Source: a virus
IMG/VR virus record: IMGVR_UViG_3300048592_000970
Coordinates: 1-47,934 of that record
Length of the DNA stretch: 47,934 nt
Reading direction: 5' to 3' (one strand)
Part shown: piece by piece, positions 9,873 to 47,934 of the stretch
Layout of the letters: every line of letters begins with the position of its first letter
Numbering within the stretch: position 1 is the first letter of the stretch
Program-made: the position numbers and the translations under genes
Notes under the pieces: generated by a model
Told to the model about the DNA's origin: nothing
Database searches by the model: none
The model's input: only the letters and a program-made list of their open reading frames with translations

Positions 9873-9961
9873 CTCGGAGCTCTCGGCGCCCCGCCCCGGC
9901 CCGGGCTCGGGCCCCGCCCGGCGGCGCGCGCGCGCGGAGAGCACACCGCCCCCTGGTTCGC

Positions 9962-9998
9962 AGAGAGAGGGGGAGGTTTCCCCGATCCCCCTCTCTCT
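9962..9998. other. Perfect 13-bp inverted repeat in origin-like region
   Basis: AGAGAGAGGGGGA at 9962-9974 is the exact reverse complement of 9986-9998, with an 11-base loop. One strand is nearly pure purine in each arm, so the arms could also form unusual purine/pyrimidine structures. No T-run follows, which argues against a simple terminator. It resembles the strong hairpins that flank phage and plasmid origins. Confidence 0.6.
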
Positions 9999-10034
9999 CT
10001 GACGTATCTCCGTAGTGGTAGAGGGAGCCGACCC

Positions 10035-10140
10035 TGTGGACAAGGTCCGCAACCCAGGCCATCTCACTACGGAATCAGCAGAACGCAGCTTGTGAATAGG
10101 CTGTGTCTTGCTGTGCGTAACTCGAGAAACCTGTGGATAA
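10035..10140 (-). promoter_or_regulatory. Row of DnaA-box-like sites, all in one orientation
   Basis: On the minus strand TTATCCACA (10140-10132) is the exact consensus DnaA box and TTGTCCACA (10043-10035) is the form common in GC-rich bacteria. Weaker sites TTACGCACA (10120-10112), CAAGACACA (10110-10102) and CTATTCACA (10099-10091) lie between. Starts are 20, 10, 11 and 56 bases apart, so four of the five lie on the same helix face. Such phasing is known from origins where DnaA forms a filament. Confidence 0.6.
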
Positions 10141-10158
10141 GTCCGCATCTCGACCACC

Positions 10159-10174
10159 TGTTCCACGTGGAACG
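10159..10174. promoter_or_regulatory. parS-like palindrome (chromosomal ParB site)
   Basis: TGTTCCACGTGGAACG contains the perfect 14-bp palindrome GTTCCACGTGGAAC (10160-10173). This equals the core of the near-universal chromosomal parS site bound by ParB/Spo0J. The consensus ends in A or, in Pseudomonas, C; here it ends in G. It lies 19 bases from the consensus DnaA box. No ParA or partition-type ParB is encoded in the window, so host ParB would be the reader. Confidence 0.65.
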
Positions 10175-10198
10175 TCGGGAGGGGATCGTCTCCGGGGA

Positions 10199-10477
10199 TC
10201 AGCCCCAGCTCTTCACGGCATCAACCTTGCCACCCGAGAGCTGCTCGATCGCGACGGCCAGCTTGCGGCTCGGCAGCGTGTTCCCGTTGGCCAGGGCGTA
10301 GACGTGCTGGCGCGTGCGCCCGAGCTCCTGGGCGACCGAGCTCACGGCATCGGCGTAGCTGGTCTTCGCCGCGCGCGCGCGCGCCTCGAGCCAGGTGCGG
10401 AACGCTGACGTCGTGTCGGTCCTCTCGGCGGGCCGGCCCATGGTCGTGCGCGCCTTCGATCGGTCGGTTCGCGGCAT
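10199..10477 (-). CDS. Helix-turn-helix regulator (XRE/Cro-like), 92 aa
   Basis: The motif V-A-Q-E-L-G-R-T-R-Q-H-V-Y-A-L-A-N-G-N at residues about 48-66 is a classic HTH, with R-T-R-Q-H-V-Y as the recognition helix. The C-terminus (A-I-E-Q-L-S-G-G-K-V-D-A) matches Cro/YdaS-type regulators. It is transcribed divergently from recT and faces a palindrome that overlaps both promoters, so self-regulation and early/late control are likely. ATG 10477 has no Shine-Dalgarno. A second ATG at 10441, with GAAGG 12 bases upstream, would give 80 aa and keeps the whole HTH. Confidence 0.85.
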   Translation of the reverse strand: MPRTDRSKARTTMGRPAERTDTTSAFRTWLEARARAAKTSYADAVSSVAQELGRTRQHVYALANGNTLPSRKLAVAIEQLSGGKVDAVKSWG

Positions 10478-10569
10478 GCGGGCTATTTATTATTTTTCGG
10501 ATTGACGCGTCAAGCCGGAATTGTCTACGTGATTCCCGGCTGGCGCTGGCCAGCGAGAGGAGAGCACCC
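10478..10569. promoter_or_regulatory. Divergent early promoter region with TTGACGCGTCAA palindrome
   Basis: The palindrome TTGACGCGTCAA (10502-10513) supplies a -35 TTGACG in each direction. Rightward, an A/T-rich block (10483-10500) lies in the UP-element position and a poor -10 (around 10525-10531) precedes recT, which has its own Shine-Dalgarno (GAGAGGAG). Leftward, the same A/T block provides the -10 (ATAAAT at 10490-10485 with a 17-base spacer), ending 7 bases before the regulator ATG. The two promoters therefore share bases, and a protein on the palindrome would affect both. Confidence 0.65.
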
Positions 10570-11505
10570 ATGTCCGACGAACGCGATCAGCAGCCGGGAG
10601 CACCGACGACCACGATGGCGCGCGTGCACAGCCAGACCACCGCGCTCGGCCCGCCGCAGGCCATCTACCCGACCTCATTCGAGGGCACGAAGAAGCTGGC
10701 CGAGGAGCTCTCCGCGAGCGACCTCCTGCCGAAGCGCCTGCAAGGCAGCGTGTCGAACGTCTTCATGACGATCCTGACCGGGCTCGACCTCGGCATCTCG
10801 CCGGCGAGCGCGCTCAGGAACATCCACGTCGTCGAAGGGAAGCCGTACCTGTCCTCGCAGCTCAAGGTCGCCCTGTGCGTGGCGAGGCGGGACGTCTGCC
10901 GCTACTTTCGGCTGGTCGAGTCGACGGCCGAGCGGGCGACATGGGAGACCTGGCGCGTCGACCGCAAGGAGCCGGAGAAGTACACGTTCACCATCGACCA
11001 GGCGCGGCGAGCCGGCCTCCTCGATCGAGGCGACGACCCGAAGAAGAACAACTGGAATCGCTTCCCCGAGAACATGCTGCGCGCGCGGGCGGCGAGCGTC
11101 CTCGTGGACACGGTCTACCAGGACGTCGTGACCGGCGTGCAGACCACCGAGGAGGGCCAGGACGAAGGCGTGCTCGCGATGGCCGAGGTCTCGCCCGGCG
11201 TGTTCGCGCCCACCGGCGTGTCGACGATGGCGCCGGCCCCGCCGCCGCCGGCGCCCCCGCCGCCGCTGCCCAAGGAGCCGACCGGGCCGGCCTCGCCGAA
11301 CGCCCGCGAGGTCACGCCGGTGACCGACTTCGAGCGCTTCGCGATCGCGATCGAGGAGTCGCAGACGCAGCGCGAGCTCGACGCCCTGGCCGGCAAGATC
11401 CAGGACGCCGTGCGCCGGCGCGTGATCACCGACCAGCAGGCGACGGACCTGCGCACGAGCTGGGACGCGCGGCGGCAGCTCCTCGCGAGCGGAGGGCGCG
11501 CGTGA
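10570..11505 (+). CDS. recT: RecT-like single-strand annealing protein
   Basis: RecT proteins coat single-stranded DNA and pair complementary strands, usually with a partner exonuclease. Family features: an N-terminal region with L-Q-G-S-V-S-N-V-F-M-T-I-L-T-G-L-D-L-G (about 57-75), then S-S-Q-L-K-V-A-L, and the C-terminal core signature N-W-N-R-F-P-E-N-M-L-R-A-R-A near 161-174 followed by a V-Y-Q-D-V-V-T-G segment. The tail after residue 215 is Pro-rich and disordered. At 311 aa the length is normal. A GAGAGGAG site lies upstream; the stop overlaps the exonuclease start (GTGA). Confidence 0.85.
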   Translation: MSDERDQQPGAPTTTMARVHSQTTALGPPQAIYPTSFEGTKKLAEELSASDLLPKRLQGSVSNVFMTILTGLDLGISPASALRNIHVVEGKPYLSSQLKVALCVARRDVCRYFRLVESTAERATWETWRVDRKEPEKYTFTIDQARRAGLLDRGDDPKKNNWNRFPENMLRARAASVLVDTVYQDVVTGVQTTEEGQDEGVLAMAEVSPGVFAPTGVSTMAPAPPPPAPPPPLPKEPTGPASPNAREVTPVTDFERFAIAIEESQTQRELDALAGKIQDAVRRRVITDQQATDLRTSWDARRQLLASGGRA

Positions 11506-12782
11506 TCACCGCCAGCGCCGTCGAGCGCGTCATGGCCTGCCCGGCAAGCGAGGTCCTCGACCACGTGCAGCAGGACAGCGTGTTCTCGGAGCGAGGCCGC
11601 GCCATCCACGACTTCCTCGAGCAGCTCACCCTGGCCCGCGGGCGCGGCGTGTCGCTCGAGCTCGCCCGCAAGGAAGCTCTCGAGCTGATCAGCCTGGAGT
11701 GGCGCCCGGTGTGCGAGGCGATCGACGTCAAGCGCCTGCCCCCGCTCGAGCGCTTCGCGCCGGAGTACGCGATGGCCTGGCTGCCGGGCCCGACGGAGGA
11801 GTACCGCGCGCTCGGCGCGCTCGCCAGCCATCGTGGCTACCGCGAGGCCGGCCTGCACGACGGGTGGCTCGCCGGCACGGCCGACCTGATCGCGATCGGC
11901 GTGCGCGACGGTGTGCGCGTCGCCGTCGTCGGCGACTGGAAGAGCGGCTGGTCGAAGCGGACGGAGGCGCGCCGGAACCCGCAGCTGCTCTTCCTGGCGA
12001 AGCTCGCGATGGCGGTGTTCGACTGCCAGGCCGCCGAGGTCTTCCTGGTCGTCGTCGAGGAGGGCGTGCCGCCGCGGGTCGACCACGCGTGCCTCGGGCC
12101 CTTCGACATCGCGGTGTTCACCGCCGAGCTCGAGCGCTCGCTCGAGGACGTCGACACGGCGCGGCGCATCCGGGCGGCGAACGGACAGCTGCGCCAGGCC
12201 GCCGGCGCCCACTGCACGCACTGCCCGGCCTTCGTGCACTGCCCGGCGAAGCGGGCGCTGATCAGCGCGATCCCGACGGCGACCGCCCTCGACCTGCGGC
12301 GCGCCGACGAGGAGGACGCGCAGGCGATCGCCGAGCGCTTCGAGTGGTACCAGCAGGCCGAAGCCGCGATGTCCAGGCTGAAGGCTGCCTTCCGGGAGTG
12401 GGCGCTGACCCGGCCGATCACGCTCTCCGACGGCAAGGTCTACGGCCCGGTGCTCGTCGGGAACGAGACGATCGACGGCGCCGCCGCGCTCGAGCTCGTG
12501 CGTCGGTTCGCGGTGCGCGAGCTCGACGCGCTCGAGCAGCGCGGCGGGGGCAAGCTCGAGGTGCCGGCGAAGGAGATCGAGGGCGCCTTCGGCTTCGAGA
12601 CCTCCAAGACCGCGCTCGCGAAGGTCGCCCGGCACCTGGCGCAGATGGTTGGGCGCCCGATCAGCCGCGTCGAGGCCGAGCTCCTCGAGTATCTGCGCGG
12701 CGCGGGAGCGGTCGCCTCGGTGCCCAAGACGGAGGTGCACGTGCGCAAGCCCAAGCCGCTCCCGACCGCCGCCGCGAAGTAG
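11502..12782 (+). CDS. PD-(D/E)XK exonuclease with iron-sulfur cluster (Cas4/RecB-like, DUF2800 type)
   Basis: It probably resects double-stranded ends to give RecT its substrate. Active-site residues are visible: G-T-A-D-L near D128, G-D-W-K-S-G with D145 and K147, and N-P-Q-L with Q161. C13 (in M-A-C-P-A-S) with C238, C241 and C247 (C-T-H-C-P-A-F-V-H-C) matches the four-Cys 4Fe-4S arrangement of Cas4 and AddB nucleases. The C-terminal 150 residues are helical with no clear family. It is 426 aa with a GTG start overlapping the recT stop, so the pair is coupled. Confidence 0.85.
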   Translation: MITASAVERVMACPASEVLDHVQQDSVFSERGRAIHDFLEQLTLARGRGVSLELARKEALELISLEWRPVCEAIDVKRLPPLERFAPEYAMAWLPGPTEEYRALGALASHRGYREAGLHDGWLAGTADLIAIGVRDGVRVAVVGDWKSGWSKRTEARRNPQLLFLAKLAMAVFDCQAAEVFLVVVEEGVPPRVDHACLGPFDIAVFTAELERSLEDVDTARRIRAANGQLRQAAGAHCTHCPAFVHCPAKRALISAIPTATALDLRRADEEDAQAIAERFEWYQQAEAAMSRLKAAFREWALTRPITLSDGKVYGPVLVGNETIDGAAALELVRRFAVRELDALEQRGGGKLEVPAKEIEGAFGFETSKTALAKVARHLAQMVGRPISRVEAELLEYLRGAGAVASVPKTEVHVRKPKPLPTAAAK

Positions 12783-46407: not shown

Positions 46408-46613
46408 TCCCATCCCATCTCCTTGGCCAGCTGCTCCATGGTCTGATCCGGGTTGCCGACGAGCGCGCTCGCCGCAGCGCGCGCCACCTCGATCCAGCGC
46501 TGCCTCTCGACCTCGCCGATCTCGATCCAGCCGAGGGCGTAGCCGCTGCCGCCGACGTTTCGCGAGCGCTCCCAGGCGTAGTGGAGGCGCGCGGCGAGCT
46601 GCTCGAGTGTCAC
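46404..46613 (-). CDS. Small helical hypothetical protein, 69 aa
   Basis: GTG 46613 overlaps the methyltransferase stop (GTGA). Helical throughout, with L-E-Q-L-A-A-R-L-H-Y-A-W-E-R-S, W-I-E-I-G-E-V-E-R-Q-R-W-I-E-V-A-R-A-A-A and a final E-Q-L-A-K-E-M-G-W-E. A similar W-x-x-L-x-x-x-x-R-x-x-W-x-x-V-A-R-A-A pattern is found in small phage proteins that accompany methyltransferases or primases. No function is assigned. Confidence 0.65.
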   Translation of the reverse strand: MTLEQLAARLHYAWERSRNVGGSGYALGWIEIGEVERQRWIEVARAAASALVGNPDQTMEQLAKEMGWE

Positions 46614-47854
46614 CCCCGCACCGCCTTCGCGCCCGTCGCCTTCTCCCAGCGCTGCACGATCACGTCGCAGTAGTTCGGCGACAGCTCCATCGCGTAGCCG
46701 CGCCGGCCGGCCGCGTCGGCGGCGATCAGCGTGCTGCCGCTGCCGCCGAAGAGGTCCAGCACCACGTCGCCGCGCCTCGAGCTGTTCCTGACCATCCGGT
46801 CGATCAGCTCGAGCGGCTTGGTCGTCGGGTGCAGGTCGCTCCGGCCCGGCCGCTTCACCGGCCAGACCGTCGTCTGCGTCCGATCGTGGAGCTCGACCAG
46901 GCGCGGCCCGCCCTCGCGCCAGCCGTACCACACCGGCTCGTATATCTCGTGGTAGTCCTTCCGGCCGAGCACCGGGCGGTCCTTCAGCCAGATGATCGTG
47001 CTCGACCAGTGGAAGCCGGCGGTGCGCAGCGCGCCGTCGATCACCGGCCACTCCTGCGAGCTCATGACCACGTAGGCCGGTGCGCCGGCGGCGAGCGCGC
47101 CGGCGGCGACGGCACACACGCGCCGGCACCACTCGGGGAAGTCAGCGCCGAGCGCGTCGTTCGCGATGTGGTTGTTCTCGCGGGTCTTGCTGATCCGCTT
47201 CGTCGACACGTAGTTCTCGAGGTCGACGTTCCACGGTGGATCGGTGATCAGCTGGCGCGCCTTCTCGCCGGCGAGCAGCGCGGCGACCGCCTCGACCGAC
47301 GTCGAGTCGCCGCACATCAGCCGGTTCTCGCCGAGCAGCCAGACGTCGCCCGGCTGCGTGATCGCGGTCTCGGGCGGCGGGGGGATGTCGTCGTCGGTCG
47401 CGCCGCCGCCGCCGGCCGCGGCGCCCAGGAGGTCGGCCAGCTCGCGGTCGGTGAAGCCGATGTCGTCGCCGCGCAGGCCCTCGCTCGCGATCTCCCCGAG
47501 CACCTTGGAGAGCTGGACGTCGTCCCAGTCGGCGAACTCGGCCGAGCGGTTGTCGCTCACCGCGTAGGCGCGCGCCCTCGCCGCGCTGCCGTTCCACGTG
47601 ACCACCGCGAGCTCGGTCCAGCCGAGCTTCCGGGCGGCCTCGATCGTGCCGCTGCCAGCGATCGCGGTGCCGTCGGGCAGCACGACCACCGGCTTCTGCT
47701 GGCCGTGCAGCTCGAGGGATCGCGCGATCTCGTCCAGCGACCGCCTGCCGTGCTTCTTCACGTTGTTCGGGTCGGCTCGGATGGTCGCGAGCGGCCTGAC
47801 CAGCGGGGCCAGGGTCGGGTTGATGCGATTGATTTGCTTAGCCGGATTGCCCAC
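46610..47854 (-). CDS. ParB-like nuclease domain fused to DNA methyltransferase, 414 aa
   Basis: Residues about 15-110 are a ParB/Srx-type fold (I-R-A-D-P-N-N-V-K-K-H, G-Q-Q-K-P-V-V-V, A-G-S-G-T-I-E-A-A-R-K-L-G). Residues about 165-414 are a beta-class amino-methyltransferase with catalytic D-P-P-W (205-208), H-P-T-T-K-P (342-347) and the S-adenosylmethionine loop L-F-G-G-S-G-S-T (368-375). Such phage fusions methylate adenine or N4-cytosine to block restriction. The GTG start has AGGAGG six bases before it. It is not a partition protein. Confidence 0.85.
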   Translation of the reverse strand: MGNPAKQINRINPTLAPLVRPLATIRADPNNVKKHGRRSLDEIARSLELHGQQKPVVVLPDGTAIAGSGTIEAARKLGWTELAVVTWNGSAARARAYAVSDNRSAEFADWDDVQLSKVLGEIASEGLRGDDIGFTDRELADLLGAAAGGGGATDDDIPPPPETAITQPGDVWLLGENRLMCGDSTSVEAVAALLAGEKARQLITDPPWNVDLENYVSTKRISKTRENNHIANDALGADFPEWCRRVCAVAAGALAAGAPAYVVMSSQEWPVIDGALRTAGFHWSSTIIWLKDRPVLGRKDYHEIYEPVWYGWREGGPRLVELHDRTQTTVWPVKRPGRSDLHPTTKPLELIDRMVRNSSRRGDVVLDLFGGSGSTLIAADAAGRRGYAMELSPNYCDVIVQRWEKATGAKAVRG

Positions 47855-47863
47855 TTACGCCTC

Positions 47864-47934
47864 CTAGCCCTGGTGACCCGAGAAACGGATCGCATTTCGG
47901 GACTGCATTTTTTTTGATGAGAAGGGCGCCCGCG
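47864..47934 (-). CDS. Probable C-terminal end of the gene that begins at 421 (circular contig)
   Basis: Read on the minus strand from 47934, the frame left by the partial gene at position 1 continues for 23 sense codons and ends at TAG 47866-47864, nine bases before the GTG of the methyltransferase. The stop touches the AGGAGG site of that gene. This is consistent with one 163-aa gene cut by the contig ends. It is inferred from frame and spacing; no sequence in the window joins the two ends. Confidence 0.6.
   Translation of the reverse strand, partial: RAPFSSKKMQSRNAIRFSGHQG

Follow-up and report, generated by a model that had tools for sequence, protein, structure and literature searches.

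What is a parS site of the bacterial chromosomal type doing on a phage genome in which no partition genes can be detected? The question is raised by one palindrome in a single IMG/VR contig of 47,934 bp, which may be incomplete and has a gene left open at its left end; the entire contig was analysed and is called the window here. The site in question is:

10159–10174, unstranded: parS-type 16-mer TGTTCCACGTGGAACG with the palindromic core GTTCCACGTGGAAC at 10160–10173, assigned by its identity to the M. xanthus consensus (PMC3899335) and its Myxococcota bias.

The chromosome of M. xanthus has 22 parS sites with the published consensus TGTTCCACGTGGAACG, and M. xanthus ParB shifts a single parS in a 50-bp probe in vitro, whereas a mutated site is barely shifted (PMC3899335). 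The phage site is the same as this consensus over 16/16 bases, the asymmetric last G included, and conforms to the TGTTNCACGTGNAACA-like 16-bp palindrome of the Spo0J/ParB class, with an exact 14-bp core. A sequence-only reading of this DNA had taken the palindrome for a parS of chromosomal type, and this assignment is supported by the sequence, which is typical of Myxococcota. The setting of the site, however, is not that of chromosomal parS, which lies near oriC and usually in several copies: the phage site is a single copy, and the virion genes of the record that carries it are of the Mu type. The core has no other exact copy in the window, the next nearest sequences differ from it at 2–3 positions, and a search with GTTYCACGTGRAAC at up to one mismatch revealed no second parS site there. 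Under a first-order Markov model of the window, the chance expectation is 7e-5 copies of the 14-mer and 5e-6 copies of the 16-mer in the whole window, and 7e-7 copies of the exact 14-mer within the 433-bp intergenic gap that houses the site.

The virion genes of the window (portal, gpT-like head protein, sheath, tape measure and baseplate) are of the Mu type. These head and tail genes occur without a Mu transposase and are coupled to a lambda-like RecT/exonuclease early module. The genes and the operator that bear on the site are:

10199–10477, minus strand: small HTH regulator, a probable phage repressor (PHROG phrog_35 transcriptional repressor, E 8.8e-6), with an additional weak Pfam YdaS match below the cut-off.

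10502–10513, unstranded: perfect palindrome TTGACGCGTCAA, a likely operator for the regulator, assigned only by its position in the divergent regulator/recT promoter gap.

10570–11505, plus strand: RecT-like single-strand annealing protein (PHROG phrog_4171, E 3e-24), encoded by the first gene of the rightward early operon.

10875–12782, plus strand: frame holding the PD-(D/E)XK exonuclease, the partner of RecT and next in the operon (PDDEXK_1 5e-10, DUF2800 9e-10, phrog_69; Pfam and PHROG values are from a scan of the ORF set, and the true start is near the recT stop).

46610–47854, minus strand: ParB/Srx-like N-terminal domain fused to an N6/N4 DNA methyltransferase (phrog_498, E 5e-113; Pfam N6_N4_Mtase).

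The absence of ParA and of a partition-type ParB, also claimed in the sequence-only reading, was confirmed. Pfam and NCBIfam searches found no ParA, HTH_ParB, integrase, recombinase, transposase or replicase in the 68 ORFs, and no partition-, integrase- or replicase-type family was present among the best 25 of the 63 PHROGs families for these ORFs. The sole ParB-like piece is the N-terminal domain of the methyltransferase, in which ParB-like phrogs cover residues ~20–220 and HTH_ParB is absent; the fusion is therefore not a candidate parS binder. Fusions of the ParB-CTPase fold with a methyltransferase are reported to be widespread in phages and prophages (PMC12704722); the architecture encoded in the window is the same, and such fusions differ from the DNA-binding partition ParB. 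The best phage relative of the fusion, 43% identical, is from Acidithiobacillus phage AcaML1. Neither a ParA-type ATPase nor a DNA-binding ParB of a complete phage or plasmid parABS system was thus seen in the 68 ORFs, and neither the integrase nor the Mu transposase of an integrase-type temperate phage was seen in this possibly incomplete record. The missing part, if there is one, could hold partition genes. With the window ends (1–421 and 47820–47934) joined, the left-open gene runs on in frame to a stop a short way before the methyltransferase gene; this agrees with a circular genome but does not prove one. Searches with RecT plus portal against viral contigs, and with a chimeric query against genomes, returned no close relatives, and the RecT alignment was too diverse to yield a pattern.

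The 16-mer was found in 99 of 193 Myxococcota genomes, clustered and in up to 18 exact copies (its reversed control in 0). Among Pseudomonadota, the other phylum in which it was counted, 4 of 200 genomes have it, and one of these 4 was in the set because it carries the 16-mer. Clusters of the 14-mer family are borne by some Actinomycetota loci. The GC content of the window is 70.5%, and its four closest tetranucleotide profiles are those of Myxococcota, with one Actinomycetota genome also close. Since the 16-mer bias, the GC content and the tetranucleotide profile fit best with Myxococcota, a host from this phylum is likely, though not proven. Prophage relatives of the portal are distant, at 25–30% identity in Myxococcota and Acidobacteriota (26–29% in Myxococcota), and none was found in Actinomycetota. 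Myxophage Mx8, the sole myxophage checked, was rejected as a site-bearing relative, as it has one match with 1 mismatch and no exact site.

The 433-bp gap around the site is flanked by the leftward and rightward early operons, and no promoter could be assigned within it. It contains the following elements:

9962–9998, unstranded: perfect 13-bp inverted repeat with an 11-nt loop, AGAGAGAGGGGGA / TCCCCCTCTCTCT.

10010–10072, unstranded: inverted repeat CCGTAGTG (10010–10017) / CACTACGG (10065–10072), read from the sequence and paired in the DNA fold.

10035–10043, minus strand: second DnaA-type box TTGTCCACA, with 1 mismatch, 97 bp beyond the first box.

10063–10162, unstranded: A+T-richer stretch, a possible unwinding element (51% GC against 70.5% in the genome).

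10132–10140, minus strand: perfect DnaA box TTATCCACA, 19 bases from the 14-mer.

The perfect box is the consensus DnaA box that the sequence-only reading had seen beside the palindrome. Both boxes are embedded in a CCTGTGGAYAAG repeat (10033–10044 and 10130–10141), and they are the only DnaA boxes in the window at up to one mismatch. The DNA between and beside them has 51–55% GC, and the 10063–10162 stretch is the fourth lowest in GC among the non-overlapping 100-bp stretches of the window. The second box is bracketed by the CCGTAGTG / CACTACGG inverted repeat, and the single strand of 9940–10198 folds better than shuffled sequences (z = −3.1). With two boxes 97 bp apart and low-GC DNA between them, and without an initiator gene, the region is a candidate DnaA-dependent origin, which would lie at 9.9–10.2 kb of the window. 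The sequence-only reading had likened it to a host origin copied in compact form, and that idea is not supported. None of 422 chromosomal 14-mers examined (0/422) has a DnaA box at a distance of 45 bp or less, and apart from parS itself the intergenic region resembles no host locus. As no such pair was seen among these chromosomal copies, the arrangement of parS and DnaA box is a feature of the phage and not a copied host origin.

The reading that we favor, with a confidence only a little better than even, is that the site is an orphan parS of host type, that the phage origin in which it lies depends on DnaA, and that host ParB is recruited there so that phage DNA is partitioned or positioned. 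It is based on the 16/16 match to a ParB-bound consensus, the Myxococcota bias of the 16-mer, its intergenic place and the adjacent DnaA boxes, and, additionally, on the fact that no parAB, integrase or replicase was detected and that the site recurs in other viral contigs. Host ParB is likely to bind the phage site; the purpose of the binding would be partition. While the phage infects, and above all if it persists as a plasmid-like prophage outside the chromosome, ParB-CTP clamps of the host would be loaded onto the 16-mer and spread over the adjoining phage DNA. The genome of the phage would then be treated like the chromosomal origin by host ParA, perhaps together with SMC, and so be partitioned or positioned; host DnaA would open the same region for replication via the adjacent boxes. 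Partition run by the host would suit a phage that is kept without an integrase. Several points speak against the recruitment of host ParB for partition: the phage has a single site, whereas many Myxococcota chromosomes use clusters; the Myxococcota host is not proven, its portal relatives being distant; no close relatives were found in which the site could be seen to be kept; the site is patchy in the marine surrogate family described below; Mx8 has no exact copy; and partition genes could lie beyond a record that may be incomplete. A decoy role for the single phage site is weak, because many Myxococcota chromosomes hold clusters of up to 18 exact copies.

Host ParB could also bind the site for a purpose other than partition, which we regard as unlikely. 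In this case a ParB clamp, or the SMC loaded by it, would silence or reshape the control DNA of the early genes, between the regulator and the left operon, or handcuff or delay replication at the DnaA boxes. The position of the site, between two operons and 24 bp from the 3' end of the regulator gene, would suit such a role, and repression by ParB of promoters near strong parS sites has been described (PMC5521831). Moreover, in the viral contig L413 the site and a DnaA box stand just ahead of the reading frame of an HTH regulator, in a neighborhood that also encodes an Erf annealing protein and a DNA methyltransferase. However, the gap has no assignable promoter, and the sequence does not separate such a role from partition.

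Is the window alone in carrying such a site? The 14-mer occurs in at least 120 viral contigs; its enrichment is claimed from flank statistics and from a scrambled palindrome that keeps the CACGTG core and occurs in 81 contigs of the whole 2.9-million-contig collection, not from the total count of 14-mers. T was found at position −1 in 163 of 242 half-sites of the viral 14-mers from these contigs, compared with 51 of 162 for the scrambled palindrome. Sites flanked by T...A were found within long reading frames less frequently than control sites: 39% of them, against 19% of the control, had no ORF of 100 aa at the site (p = 0.013). HTH_ParB was found in 0 of the 50 parS-bearing viral records tested, whereas the same search was positive in 9 of 14 control genomes. 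Several viral records have a second, variant parS, such as GTTTCACGTGAAAC 24 bp away in G240 and GTTCCACGTGAAAC 100 bp away in G209. From the parS flanks, the lack of HTH_ParB in the 50 records and the second variant sites, orphan parS-type sites do exist on viral contigs, though not commonly, and part of them may stem from contaminating host DNA. Two different parS variants stand next to each other at L104:311-348 and L020:8706-8819, where GTTCCACGTGGAAC is combined with GTTTCACGTGAAAC or with GTTCCACGTGAAAC. Another viral contig, of 18.6 kb and without HTH_ParB, has three exact copies of GTTCCACGTGGAAC and three DnaA boxes in 155 bp (L125:293-447).

The combination with a DnaA box also recurs. 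Besides the window, 10 distinct viral contigs have a TGTGGAYAA no more than 30 bp from the 14-mer, counting both orientations, while the scrambled palindrome, for which one orientation was tested, had no DnaA box at this distance in any contig (0). L036, a contig that also encodes a terminase, has the DnaA box and parS 271 bp upstream of a replication-initiator gene (L036:3070-4119). A stretch nearly identical to this DnaA box/parS region is present on another contig, L412. In the marine contigs L122, L124, L410 and L411 the 14-mer lies within a DnaA-box array and, where genes were read, between the primase/helicase side and the terminase side. That the pair recurs in phage contigs argues for a function linked to replication or maintenance. 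One further contig, L126, with the site 23 bp from a box, was set aside as a phage example: the four ORFs scanned had no phage-family match, and it may therefore be host DNA.

The marine contigs belong to a family that we used as a surrogate for the conservation of the site. The CCTGTGGATAAC DnaA-box array lies upstream of the terminase operon in L122, L124, L410, L411, L415 and L467–L469, and in L122 it lies downstream of a primase/helicase gene; members of the family have the parS palindrome in the array, a one-base variant of it, or neither. The agreement of the site among the first four marine loci was discarded because those loci had been chosen by the 14-mer. Among 43 marine relatives picked by terminase, independently of the site, 5 keep it at up to one mismatch (one of them the L122 contig), each with at least three DnaA boxes nearby, and five scrambled palindromes were found in none of the 43. 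The remaining 38 are without the site at this threshold, and three relatives, L467–L469, have the centre changed to CACATG. Conservation in this surrogate family is patchy.

In these arrays the palindrome could be a DnaA-related origin element serving DnaA or a phage initiator and not ParB. An inverted pair of boxes, GTTATCCAC/GTGGATAAC, from which two bases per arm are lost, gives GTT-CCAC/GTGG-AAC; given this resemblance, the palindrome of the marine arrays may well have arisen from DnaA boxes instead. The 14-mer or its 1-mismatch form stands inside CCTGTGGATAAC arrays in L122, L124, L410, L411 and L415, and in the near-identical L414 a DnaA-box repeat stands where related contigs have the 14-mer; the altered centre of L467–L469 points the same way. 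Most viral 14-mers, however, have no DnaA box nearby and yet keep the parS flanks. The window has no array, and its 16-mer equals the Myxococcota parS down to the last base, with the outer bases T...G typical of that phylum, so that ParB is a better guess for it than a DnaA-related element, which we consider improbable here.

Could the palindrome instead be the operator of the HTH regulator encoded at 10199–10477, or of some other DNA-binding protein, with its parS identity a coincidence? It does lie in a control region beside the regulator gene. However, a match of 16/16 to a ParB-bound consensus is improbable by chance, and the site is a single copy behind the regulator gene and not at the divergent regulator/recT promoter, where TTGACGCGTCAA is the more natural operator. 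The parS flank signature, moreover, recurs in unrelated viral contigs. We therefore hold an operator to be very improbable, more so than the DnaA-related element. Least probable of all is a chance occurrence without function: although the scrambled palindrome shows that some viral parS 14-mers must be accidental, the 7e-7 expected in the gap still leaves the outer bases and the DnaA box uncounted, and the pairing with a DnaA box was seen in 10 other contigs for parS and in 0 for the control.

Recruitment of host ParB to the phage origin, as preferred here, has partial precedents. The closest is SGI1, which carries parS mimics and hijacks the parABS system of the IncC plasmid (PMC10954446). Like the window, SGI1 is a mobile element without partition proteins of its own that carries parS copies for the ParB/ParA of another replicon, and the parS-like site of another replicon with no own ParB is what was found here. 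SGI1 differs in that it is an integrative mobilisable island exploiting a plasmid, whereas the carrier here is a phage that would draw on the host chromosome as donor; proof of binding and stabilisation exists for SGI1 alone. Mycobacteriophages of the RedRock group (PMC7157519), which have no integrase, maintain their extrachromosomal prophages by partition and have centromere sites in the genome. Their ParA and ParB, however, are phage-encoded, and their centromeres are arrays of 8-bp repeats, whereas in this record there is one host-type palindrome and no par genes were detected. In the M. xanthus ParABS system the site is the same, and the difference lies in the single copy, in the parA and parB genes, which were not found in the record, and in the DnaA box 19 bases away, which none of the 422 chromosomal 14-mers has a counterpart of. 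In the literature covered, which left subscription journals and preprints mostly outside, we found no phage with a host-chromosome parS and without parA and parB.

Phages with partition systems of their own, and an island that steals the system of a plasmid, were thus known already. Beyond the window, we suggest, more tentatively than for the window itself and at somewhat less than even confidence, that several unrelated phage lineages have independently placed a host-type parS beside DnaA boxes at their origins. They would be minimal replicons run by the host, in which host DnaA starts replication and host ParB/ParA (or SMC) partitions, positions or condenses the phage DNA, with no partition proteins from the phage. 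A simple test is possible because the site is 16 bp long and the contacts of ParB are known. Loading of host ParB on phage DNA would link both the replication of the virus and the inheritance of the prophage to the central chromosome-segregation machine of the host, and would predict extrachromosomal lysogens in integrase-less myxophages.
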